Source: Pelagibacterales bacterium SAG-MED19
GTDB lineage: Bacteria; Pseudomonadota; Alphaproteobacteria; Pelagibacterales; Pelagibacteraceae
DNA: 64,000 bases
Assembly (NCBI GenBank): GCA_014654035.1
Contig: JACWDQ010000003.1
Location: 40,635-104,634 of the forward strand
Direction: 5' to 3'
The notes under the pieces are model-generated. The model did not search any database and was not told the DNA's origin. It saw only the letters and a program-made list of their open reading frames with translations. Numbering within the stretch: position 1 is the first letter of the stretch; every line of letters starts with the position of its first letter. The translations under genes were made by a program, and so were the position numbers. This document shows positions 16,373-61,830 of this stretch, piece after piece.

Positions 16373-17350
16373 ATGAAAACAGCATTAGTTTTAGGATCTA
16401 CAGGACAAGATGGATCGTATATGTGTGATTTGTTGTTAAAAAAAAATTATAAAGTTTATGCTTTAGTAAGAAAATCAGCCACTGGAAATACAAAAAATTT
16501 AAAGCATATACTTAAAGATAAAAAAGTTTTTGAAAAAAAATTTTTTTTAGTAAGAGGGGATCTCAATGATCATTCGTCAATTCAAAATTTAATTATTGGT
16601 CTAAAGCCAAATGAGATTTATAATTTTGCTGATCAAGATCATGTTGGCTGGAGCTTTGCTATCCCAAGTTATTCATTAATGACAACGTCTCATTCCTTAA
16701 TAAATATTCTTGAAACTATAAAAAATTCAAACAATAAAATTAAATACTTTCACCCCTTATCCTCAAATATGTTTGGTATCACTAAAGAAAAAAAACAAAA
16801 TGAAAATACTGTTTTTAATCCTCAAAGTGTTTATGCAATTTCAAAAGTTACCTGTTATCACTTATGTAACCTTTATAGAAATGTTTATAATTTAAAAATC
16901 TATAATGCAATTTTTTATAATCATGAGTCTCCAAGAAGATCTGAAGAGTATGTAACCACAAAAATAGTTAAACATGTGTGTGAAATTTATAAAAAAAGAA
17001 GAAAAAGTTTAGAGCTTGGTGATATTACAGCTAAGATAGATTGGGGATATGCAAAAGAATATGTAAAATATGTTCAAAAAATTATGCAGTTAAAGAAGCC
17101 AGATATTTTTATTGTAGCGACAGGAAAGTCTAATTCAGTAAAAGATTTTGCAGAAAAATGTTTTAAATATGTAGGTTTAAATTATAAAAAATATTTAAAA
17201 ATAAACAAAAAGTTTTTAAGACCCTCAAAAACAAGTGTTTTAGTTGGAGATACAAAAAAAATCAAAAAAGCTTTAAACTTTAAAATTGAATATAATTTAG
17301 ACAAGATTATCAAGACAATGATGGATCATCAGTTGAAAAAATTTAGATGA
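16373..17350 (+). CDS. GDP-mannose 4,6-dehydratase-like SDR protein with altered catalytic triad
   Basis: 325 residues of extended SDR fold. Cofactor loop GSTGQDGSYMCDLLL and the Gmd-type ESPRRSEE and WGYAKEYV segments align well with the true gmd near 26.3-27.4 kb. The tyrosine-lysine pair is intact (YAISK). The position of the dehydratase Thr-Ser-Glu reads Ser-Ser-Asn (LSSNMFG), so the catalytic Glu is Asn. Loss of this Glu argues against normal 4,6-dehydration; a reductase, epimerase or other sugar-nucleotide reaction is more likely. It overlaps the following KdsB-like gene by 4 bases. Confidence 0.8.
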   Translation: MKTALVLGSTGQDGSYMCDLLLKKNYKVYALVRKSATGNTKNLKHILKDKKVFEKKFFLVRGDLNDHSSIQNLIIGLKPNEIYNFADQDHVGWSFAIPSYSLMTTSHSLINILETIKNSNNKIKYFHPLSSNMFGITKEKKQNENTVFNPQSVYAISKVTCYHLCNLYRNVYNLKIYNAIFYNHESPRRSEEYVTTKIVKHVCEIYKKRRKSLELGDITAKIDWGYAKEYVKYVQKIMQLKKPDIFIVATGKSNSVKDFAEKCFKYVGLNYKKYLKINKKFLRPSKTSVLVGDTKKIKKALNFKIEYNLDKIIKTMMDHQLKKFR

Positions 17351-26344: not shown

Positions 26345-27397
26345 ATGAAAAAAAAAATAGCATTAATTTTTGGAATAACAGGGCAGGACGGATCATATCT
26401 TTCTGAATTTCTGATAAGAAAAAATTATATTGTGCATGGTGTTAAAAGAAGATCATCATCAATTAATACTAAAAGAGTTGATCATATTTACCAAGATCCA
26501 TTGGAAAGTAGACGAAATTTTTTTTTACACTATGGAGATATAACTGACTCAAGTTCAGTATCACAAATAATAAGTGATACAAAGCCTGATGAAATTTATA
26601 ATTTAGCTGCCCAATCTCATGTTGCTGTTTCTTTTGAAGTTCCAGAGTATACTGCAAATGCTGATGCCCTAGGTGCATTAAGAATTTTAGAGGCAATTAA
26701 ATTTCATAAGTTAGAAAAAAAAACAAAATTTTATCAAGCAGGAACATCTGAAATGTATGGTAAGGTTCAAAGTATTCCACAAAATGAGAAGACTGATTTT
26801 TATCCTTTAAGTCCTTATGGTGTAGCAAAGCTTTACGCGCATTGGATTACAAAAAATTATAGAGAAGCATATAAGATATATGGAAGTAATGGAATTTTAT
26901 TTAATCACGAAAGTCCAAGGAGAGGCGAAACATTTGTTACAAAAAAAATTGTTAATGCCTTATGCAAAATTAAATTAGGAATACAAAAAAAACTATATTT
27001 AGGAAATCTTGATGCGAAAAGAGATTGGGGACATGCCAAGGACTATGTTGAAGCTATGTGGAAAATTTTACAGCAAAAACAACCTGATGATTATGTAATT
27101 GCCACTGGAAAACAATATAGTGTTAGACAATTTGTAAACTTAGTATCTAAAAAACTTGGTTTTAAAATTAGCTGGAAAGGAAAAGGCATAAATGAAAAAG
27201 GTTTTGATCAAATATCAAAAAAAACAGTAATTGAGTGTAACAAAAAATACTTTCGACCTTTAGATGTTAATACTTTATTAGGTGATGCAAAAAAAGCTAA
27301 GAAAAAACTTAAATGGAAACCTAAGATAAACATTAATCAATTAGTTGACGATATGATATCTGAAGAAATGATATCTTTAGAAACCAATGATAAATAA
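26345..27397 (+). CDS. gmd: GDP-mannose 4,6-dehydratase
   Basis: 350 residues, full family length. [14 protein letters not shown] binds [28 protein letters not shown] (catalytic Thr and Glu), YGVAK (Tyr-x3-Lys) and [13 protein letters not shown] are all intact, as are [12 protein letters not shown] and [13 protein letters not shown]. The enzyme turns GDP-mannose into GDP-4-keto-6-deoxymannose in the cytoplasm. The following fcl gene overlaps by 11 bases and completes GDP-L-fucose synthesis. Two diverged paralogues of this protein lie elsewhere in the window, which makes this the reference copy. Confidence 0.95.
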
Positions 27398-59891: not shown

Positions 59892-59965
59892 GCGCTTGTA
59901 GCTCAACTGGATAGAGTGCCTGACTTCGGATCAGGAGGTTCTAGGTTCGACTCCTAGCAGGCGCA
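59892..59965 (+). tRNA. tRNA-Arg (UCG)
   Basis: 74 bases without encoded CCA. Acceptor GCGCTTG (59892-59898) pairs with CAGGCGC (59958-59964), discriminator A 59965. Anticodon stem CCTGA/TCAGG encloses loop CTTCGGA, anticodon TCG, reading CGA and probably other CGN Arg codons. T arm CTAGG-TTCGACT-CCTAG is standard. Confidence 0.96.
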
Positions 59966-59989
59966 CGAGATTAAAAAAAGTTTGTATTA

Positions 59990-60031: not shown

Positions 60032-60883
60032 ATGAATAAAATTTATATTTACCATCATCTAGGATTAGGAGATCATATTTCATGCAATGGTATCGTGAGA
60101 TCAATTTTAAAAAAGAACAAAAAAACAAATATTTTTTTATTTTGTAAAAAACCTTTAACAGATTTAGTTAAATTTATGTATCGAGATAAAAAAAATATTA
60201 AACTAATACCTATTCAAACAAAGGGTAAAAGTGAAAAAGAATATTCTGATAAAATTGAGAACTATCTTAGAAATTTAAAAAAAAAACACAAAATAATTAA
60301 AATCGGCTTTGAAAATTTTAATAAGATTTATAATCAAATTTATTCATATAATAATCCGGTAACATATGACATGATTTTTTATCATCAATTAAATTTATCT
60401 TATAAAAAAAGATTTTCAGAGTGTTTTTGGAAAAGAGATTATAAAGAGGAAAATAGAGTTTTTAAAAAACTTACTAAAAATAAAAAAAGGAAATATGCAT
60501 TTATTCATGACGACCCAAAGCTTGGTTATATAATAGATAAAAAATTTGTAAGTTCAGGTCTTGAAATTATAAAAAATGATAAAAATGAAAATATATTCCA
60601 TATGGGAAAAATTTTAGAAAAAGCAGAAGAGCTCCATTTAATGGAAAGCTCTATTAGAAATATGTCTGAAAGCTTAAAAATAAGATCTAGAAATATAAAT
60701 TTATATATTTGGAGAAGAAGGAAAATTTCTCCTATTTATAGCCCTAAATTAAAAAAAGTTGTAGGTTCACAAAAAAATTGGAAAATCATTTTTATGAATC
60801 CAAAACAAAAAAATTTTAAATTTTTTTTTATGAATAGTGTTTTAAAATTAAGATTTTATTTATTAGGAATATTATCAAAATAA
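60032..60883 (+). CDS. Putative GT9-like surface carbohydrate protein
   Basis: 283 residues. The start IYHHLGLGDHISCNGIVRSI resembles the heptosyltransferase-like (GT9) opening where a Gly-x-Gly-Asp turn precedes the first helix. Further on, ILEKAEELHLMESSIRNMSE has the Glu-x-x-x-Ser-Ser pattern of the GT9/ADP-heptose donor end. Middle sections are Lys-rich without known motifs. It follows tRNA-Arg and pairs with a Gmd-like protein 2 bases downstream; a glycan role is inferred. Not an established family member. Confidence 0.5.
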   Translation: MNKIYIYHHLGLGDHISCNGIVRSILKKNKKTNIFLFCKKPLTDLVKFMYRDKKNIKLIPIQTKGKSEKEYSDKIENYLRNLKKKHKIIKIGFENFNKIYNQIYSYNNPVTYDMIFYHQLNLSYKKRFSECFWKRDYKEENRVFKKLTKNKKRKYAFIHDDPKLGYIIDKKFVSSGLEIIKNDKNENIFHMGKILEKAEELHLMESSIRNMSESLKIRSRNINLYIWRRRKISPIYSPKLKKVVGSQKNWKIIFMNPKQKNFKFFFMNSVLKLRFYLLGILSK

Positions 60884-60885
60884 GT

Positions 60886-61830
60886 ATGAGGAAAAAGATT
60901 TTAATAATTAGCACAGGAGTATTGAGTGCTTATCTATCAAAATTTCTTTTGAGTAAAAAATATGAAGTATATGTAACATCTAGAAAATTAAAAAAACAAT
61001 ATAAAAATTTTAGTAATTTAAAAATTCAAAAACAAGTTTTTTTTAAGAAGCTAGATATTTTAAACACAAATTCAATATCAAAACTTTTAAAAGAAGTTAA
61101 ACCTATCATAATTTTCTATTTTGCTGGACAAAGCTCTGTAACGAAAAGCTTTGATTTAAAAAAAGAAACATATAATTCAAATTACATTGGTTGCAAAAAT
61201 TTTTTAAAAGTTTTAAAAAAAAATAATTTAAAAATTAAGTTTTTAAAAGCTAACAGTGGATATATTTTTTCTTTTAAAAAAAAATTTAATTATCTAAAAC
61301 CCAAGTTCTTAAAAAGTCTAAATCCCTACATCAATGCTCAAAAAAAAGCTTTTCAAATTGTTAATCAATTTAGAAAAAAAGGTGTTGCATCTTACAATAT
61401 TATTTTTTTTCAAGTTGAGTCTAATTTGAGACCAAACAATTTCTTTTTAAAAAAAATATGTATTTATTTAAAAAATAATATTTATAATAAAAAAAAACTT
61501 AAAGTTGGTAATTTAAATGTAATTAGAGATTTTGGTTGGGCGCCAGATTTAGTAATGGGCGCTTATTTTATGAGTTATTTAAAACCTTGTAACTTAGTAA
61601 TAGCGTCTGGTAAAAAATATTCGTTAAAAAAAATATTAGAAATGGCTTTCAAAATTAAAAACCTCAATTACAAAAAATTTATTGAGATTGATAAAAATCT
61701 TTTTAGAAAAAATGAGGAAAAAAATGTATTCCCTGAAATTAGAACAAGTATAGAAAAGTTAAAAAAATTTAAATGGAAACCAAAAATTTATGGAAAAGAT
61801 TTATTATTAAAAATTTATAATAATTTATAA
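60886..61830 (+). CDS. Degenerate GDP-mannose 4,6-dehydratase-like SDR protein, probable pseudoenzyme
   Basis: 314 residues that align along most of Gmd: YFAGQSSVTKSFDL for the [12 protein letters not shown] segment, IRDFGWAPDLVMGAYFM for the [12 protein letters not shown] segment, VIASGKKYSLKKIL for the next. But the NADP loop GxTGxxGxxL reads STGVLSAYLS, the catalytic Thr-Ser-Glu is absent (NSGYIF), the Tyr-x3-Lys is Tyr-x3-Gln (YINAQ) and SPRRGE is SNLRPN. Cofactor use and catalysis are therefore doubtful. The frame is intact with no stop, so a non-catalytic or altered function is likelier than decay. Confidence 0.7.
   Translation: MRKKILIISTGVLSAYLSKFLLSKKYEVYVTSRKLKKQYKNFSNLKIQKQVFFKKLDILNTNSISKLLKEVKPIIIFYFAGQSSVTKSFDLKKETYNSNYIGCKNFLKVLKKNNLKIKFLKANSGYIFSFKKKFNYLKPKFLKSLNPYINAQKKAFQIVNQFRKKGVASYNIIFFQVESNLRPNNFFLKKICIYLKNNIYNKKKLKVGNLNVIRDFGWAPDLVMGAYFMSYLKPCNLVIASGKKYSLKKILEMAFKIKNLNYKKFIEIDKNLFRKNEEKNVFPEIRTSIEKLKKFKWKPKIYGKDLLLKIYNNL

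Follow-up and report, generated by a model that had tools for sequence, protein, structure and literature searches.

The window, that is, the whole stretch of 64,000 nucleotides that was analyzed, belongs to the 1.01-Mb draft genome (G000, 84% complete) of Pelagibacterales bacterium SAG-MED19. It contains a gene for a Gmd-derived extended SDR, here called Q-SDR, which is preceded by a shorter open reading frame and a tRNA gene (Table 1). An identical copy of the Q-SDR gene is present in Pelagibacterales bacterium SAG-MED10, a separate single-cell genome record, which places the gene in SAR11. The product of the 283-aa open reading frame matched no Pfam or NCBIfam family, and it belongs to a small family, with homologs in four other genomes of the genus, two of them beside sugar or FkbM-like genes. 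One homolog, in G257, forms part of a 914-aa protein and adjoins an epimerase-like gene.

Table 1. Positions of the features discussed; positions without a locus name are those of the window.
Feature	Position	Strand	Evidence or remark
Second Gmd paralog	16373..17350	+	S-S-N for S/T-S-E, YxxxK kept
Canonical Gmd	26345..27397		Reference for the motif alignment
tRNA-Arg(TCG), adjoining the unit	59892..59966	+	ARAGORN
283-aa ORF, possible glycosyltransferase-like partner	60032..60883	+	GT9-like GLGD start by eye; ends 2 nt before the SDR
Q-SDR, Gmd-derived extended SDR, 314 aa	60886..61830	+	Intact ORF; Pfam GDP_Man_Dehyd; AF2 fold; 20 full-length orthologs
Remodelled nucleotide loop, residues 9-14, S-T-G-V-L-S	60910..60927	+	Alignments, column counts
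K121-A-N-S124-G-Y126-I-F128, replacing GMD Q-A-S-T-S-E	61246..61269	+	Alignments; Ser retained, Glu to Tyr
P147-Y148-I-N-A-Q152, replacing PYxxxK	61324..61341	+	Alignments; Tyr retained, Lys to Gln
Q-SDR ortholog, G443	L190:6884-7819		Paired with GT9
SDR of another genus, G577	L195:1104-2057		Intact motifs
283-aa ORF homolog, G257	L291:325-3069	-	Within a 914-aa protein
Frameshift-split sister-clade SDR, G012	L039:7475-8436		Intact motifs
Gmd-like SDR, L040	G016:C1:142015-142881		S-G-L for S-S-E, YxxxK kept
Divergent GT9 allele	L073:7944-8882		Locus read
Divergent GT9 allele	L190:7816-8754		Locus read
Divergent GT9 allele	L318, L323, L326-L330, L332, L333, L335		Loci read

A sequence-only reading of this DNA had described an intact frame that aligns along Gmd, and both statements were borne out. 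The protein matched the Pfam GDP_Man_Dehyd profile over residues 11-306 (E 3e-40) with a score of 139 bits, as compared to a gathering cut-off of 27, and GMD sequences in the PDB were matched at E 1e-22. The AlphaFold (AF2) model, computed from an alignment that held the window protein and proteins of related loci only, has a pLDDT of 93.5 and a pTM of 0.92. Superposition of the model on Gmd, a check proposed in that reading, recovered the GMD fold, with GMDs as the closest solved structures (2z95, Z 38.4, rmsd 2.0 over 306 residues). Profile and fold place Q-SDR in the extended SDR superfamily. Its score of 110.1 bits against the equivalog profile TIGR01472 (gmd) is far under the curated cut-off of 415.

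We aligned the motifs of Q-SDR to those of the canonical Gmd encoded in the same genome. The Gly-rich NADP loop, previously described as lacking, is altered but not absent: GITGQDG in Gmd aligns to S-TGVLS in the window protein, with one residue deleted and the central Gly retained. In 17 of the 19 orthologs examined, the loop is a regular GxGxxG that is one residue shorter, and the degenerate SxGxxS form is confined among these orthologs to the window protein and its nearest relative. The Thr-Ser-Glu motif, which was considered lost, now reads S124-G125-Y126, but its Ser/Thr hydroxyl persists in the invariant S124. The replacement of the lysine in Tyr-x3-Lys by Gln was confirmed (Y148-INA-Q152). 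The loss of catalytic residues thus holds for the Glu and the Lys, but not for S124 and Y148, both of which are kept. Residues K121, N123, S124, Y126, Y148 and Q152 are invariant in all 19 orthologs, while residue 125 is a Gly in 18 and an Ala in one. Four of the five catalytic positions selected a priori were invariant, as compared to 60 of the 314 positions overall (P 0.005), in a set of 11 members with less than 90% identity to each other and a median pairwise identity of 51%. The altered catalytic positions are fixed in the 19 orthologs although the overall identity within the Q-SDR clade drops to 42-51%.

We also compared Q-SDR to six features that define GMDs (PMC3584063), five of which it lacks. 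The Wierenga motif GXXGXXG corresponds to S-TGVLS in the window protein, and the GXXRR motif to V30-T-S-R33-K, in which the second Arg is absent while V30, S32 and R33 are invariant among the 19 orthologs. The RR loop, which in GMD makes multimer and cofactor contacts (PMC3584063), aligns with a shortened segment that is unlike Gmd. Of the catalytic S/T with YXXXK, S124 and Y148 are kept, but Q152 replaces the Lys in 19 of 19 orthologs, and Y126 replaces the dehydratase catalytic Glu in the same number. The substrate-orienting Arg190 is retained as R182 in the window protein and in 18 of 19 orthologs, with a Lys in one. Since five of the six features are missing, Q-SDR is a full-length extended SDR of the Gmd-like group that is not to be filed as GMD. 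In GMD, the Glu serves as the C5 base and the Lys tunes the Tyr, and both are required (PMC3584063); with both gone, canonical 4,6-dehydration by Q-SDR would be very unlikely.

Among the columns with a conservation of at least 90% in Gmds, E178, S179, K190, G208, N209, R214, D215, R274 and E277 are retained in 19 of 19 orthologs, and further such columns are altered in the Q-SDR clade. Several of the retained residues presumably line the GDP site in GMDs. This substrate-side pattern suggests that the binding of a nucleotide sugar has probably been kept. Compared to Gmd (TIGR01472, PF16363; 2z95, 1n7g, 1rpn), Q-SDR shares the whole-length fold, the catalytic Tyr and many substrate-side residues, including the Arg190 equivalent, and has Ser at the Thr position, but differs by the absence of the Glu base, the YxxxK Lys, the GxxRR motif and the RR loop, and by a shortened Gly loop.

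Within the genus, 399 genomes were searched and 15 carriers of Q-SDR identified; 5 further carriers were recovered from 397 genomes of the order, in total 20 full-length orthologs, all in one SAR11 genus. In a class-wide sample of 385 genomes, no ortholog was found outside the window's own genome at E 1e-30. Two more partial copies (G005 and G193) end at or near contig ends; the G005 copy, considered as a case of decay, is cut by the contig end. The 20 full-length orthologs contain no stop codons. Nei-Gojobori estimates of dN/dS were 0.16 for the window gene against a 73% identical ortholog and 0.11-0.22 across the clade, the latter being rough values with high dS in many pairs. The gene is under purifying selection and is maintained, not decaying. 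The ortholog search and dN/dS estimates were among the checks suggested at the outset; the neutral decay in relatives that was to be looked for was not seen, and catalytic motifs are not restored in any member of the clade, intact ones being confined to outgroup proteins, one of which (G577) occupies the same locus in another genus.

Phylogenetic analysis with the loop and active-site columns removed recovered the Q-SDR clade as monophyletic with a support of 100/100. The sister clade and nearly all outgroups retain S-S-E and YxxxK, the exceptions seen being the second Gmd paralog in the window and a protein in G016. The starting point of the changes in the Q-SDR clade was thus a complete active site and, as judged from the tree and the motifs, Q-SDR arose once from a catalytically complete Gmd-like GDP-sugar SDR. 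The sister clade consists of SAR11 Gmd-like SDRs (L035, L055, L084-L088 and others), which are the nearest relatives of Q-SDR at 36-42% identity and likewise adjoin glycosyltransferase genes (GT2). They differ in having intact GGxGQFG, S-S-E and YGxxK motifs, and in being followed by a multi-TM protein, not GT9. In another genus of the family, the SDR of G577 occupies the same locus (dapA-like gene, SDR, GT9, prolyl oligopeptidase) and differs from Q-SDR in having intact GGTGQIG, SSEMF and SPYGKAK motifs; its grouping with the Q-SDR clade gave an AU p of 0.22.

Relatives of the second Gmd paralog are encoded on the viral contigs L206 and L207, with 39% identity. The G016 protein (L040) has S-G-L in place of S-S-E, so that the dehydratase Glu has been lost outside the Q-SDR clade as well. 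In L197 (G664:C10), an intact-motif sister-clade SDR is encoded in one 710-aa frame, an apparent natural fusion: the frame clusters as well with the multi-TM protein whose gene follows other sister-clade SDR genes. A frameshift-split SDR in the single-contig genome G012, which represents either a real disruption or a sequencing error, was considered as decay within the Q-SDR clade and rejected, since it belongs to the sister clade.

A GT9 glycosyltransferase gene (PF01075) is located directly downstream of the Q-SDR gene in 16 of 20 genomes, and the two genes overlap by 4 nt in the loci for which coordinates were read (L072, L073, L075, L078 and L190). In G443 (L190), an hsp20-type gene is found downstream of the pair (SAR11_0181 has been named ibpA; PMC5069961). 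GT9 occurs at the same locus with or without the SDR, and in many genomes without it; in the window's genome, the GT9 locus is found elsewhere (L309), without an SDR. The same tRNA-Arg(TCG) flanks the Q-SDR gene in L068 and L071, the 73% identical ortholog in G241 occupies the same tRNA site without the 283-aa open reading frame, and in G025 the Q-SDR gene stands alone beside tsaD. Given these varied sites (GT9 locus, tRNA-Arg, tsaD), Q-SDR is an accessory gene present at more than one site and linked mostly, but not always, to a glycosyltransferase. A phage origin was rejected, since neither phage records nor viral contigs gave a match, and so was a role in anti-phage defense, for which PADLOC gave no hit.

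Our leading interpretation, which we hold tentatively and at somewhat less than even confidence, is that this accessory SAR11 gene encodes a protein with a re-specified pocket that performs a non-dehydratase GDP-sugar reaction serving a partner glycosyltransferase. The earlier reading had offered a binding, scaffold or regulatory partner, or a new activity; conservation together with a changed function agrees with our data, but the label "pseudoenzyme" was not established. Two catalytic hydroxyls and fixed new pocket residues suggest a re-specified site more than an empty scaffold, and the pocket is probably still in use because the changed positions are frozen, not drifting. Q-SDR would bind a GDP-linked sugar, and NADP(H) would be bound at least by the members with a GxGxxG loop. 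The pocket may then run a reaction other than 4,6-dehydration, such as a 4-keto reduction or an epimerization step that would rely on Tyr148 and Tyr126, and the partner glycosyltransferase would use the modified sugar in making a surface glycan. The corresponding locus of another genus (G577), where GT9 follows an intact-motif SDR, argues for such an enzyme, whereas the loss of the Tyr-tuning Lys, the degenerate loop in the window copy, the many genomes with GT9 at the same locus but no SDR, and a window copy that does not adjoin GT9 argue against it.

The nearest competitor, which we regard as a serious possibility, is a true pseudoenzyme, in which a dead ligand-binding protein would assist the glycosyltransferase as a GDP-sugar or NADP(H) sensor or as a stabilizing subunit. 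The loss of the catalytic Lys and Glu in all orthologs, the retained substrate-side residues and the GT9 gene so often directly downstream are all consistent with this, and there is a precedent in MAT2B, the regulatory subunit of methionine adenosyltransferase II, which is itself non-catalytic and whose action on MAT2A depends on NADP+ (PMC11445541). The likeness is conceptual only, in that MAT2B is dinucleotide-binding, non-catalytic and acts on a partner enzyme, and the partner differs. The invariance of Ser124 and Tyr148 and the fixation of new pocket residues seem to exceed the needs of simple binding, and we slightly favor new chemistry over a dead partner. A more ambitious form of the new-chemistry reading, possible but less likely than not, would place Q-SDR in a branch of NDP-sugar SDRs that is new and specific to SAR11. 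Its members would combine a GxGxxG loop of the classical Rossmann type with an active site made up of Ser-Tyr-Gln plus Tyr, would catalyze a reaction unlike that of any known Gmd-type enzyme, and would be coupled to a glycosyltransferase that helps to diversify the SAR11 cell surface.

The remaining explanations fare poorly. A pure scaffold with the pocket out of use is improbable; it would account for the lost catalytic residues and for the missing loop glycines in the window copy, but few positions of the protein are as well conserved as those of the pocket, and the GxGxxG loop persists in most orthologs. Still less probable is a regulatory subunit of canonical Gmd in a hetero-oligomer. Canonical Gmd is encoded in 16 of the 21 carrier genomes, including that of the window, but it was not found in the other five, of which one (G500) is 96% complete and some others are incomplete drafts. 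This weakens the proposed regulatory role as far as Gmd itself is concerned and, together with the absence of the RR loop used in GMD multimers, makes control of Gmd unlikely; moreover, in none of the loci read does Q-SDR adjoin gmd. A decaying gene or a sequence artefact, as might be suspected from degenerate loop glycines in a very AT-rich draft genome, is next to negligible in view of the identical gene in SAG-MED10, the intact 73% identical ortholog with its low dN/dS, and a clade without stops, in which both partial copies break off at a contig end or close to one.

SAR11 are the most abundant bacteria in the ocean and their genomes are extremely streamlined. In such genomes, a Gmd-derived protein that is under purifying selection without its ancestral catalytic residues must earn its place. 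Q-SDR lends itself to testing how an enzyme family re-specifies its active site, with intact outgroups for comparison, one of them at the same locus. The changed job of Q-SDR probably lies in the synthesis of surface sugars. Phage infection is expected to be influenced by surface glycans, and the function of Q-SDR would thus be relevant to how a dominant ocean microbe interacts with its phages.

The GT9 proteins of 14 Q-SDR genomes lack the Asp that aligns with D13 of HepI (GLGANLLHL), a residue for which the D13A replacement in HepI has a 4688-fold cost (PMC5713226). A co-evolved pair of dead Q-SDR and dead GT9 was considered and rejected, as many genomes that lack Q-SDR carry this GT9 variant too. 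The variant is a divergent allele of a core SAR11 locus, with GLG[AS]NL[LIM]HL as compared to GIGD in the core allele, where the Asp aligns with the heptosyltransferase base D13. A query with the divergent allele matched 60 of 339 genomes of the genus at E 1e-55, of which only the loci listed in Table 1 were read. Among the divergent GT9 members that adjoin Q-SDR, dN/dS was 0.12-0.20.
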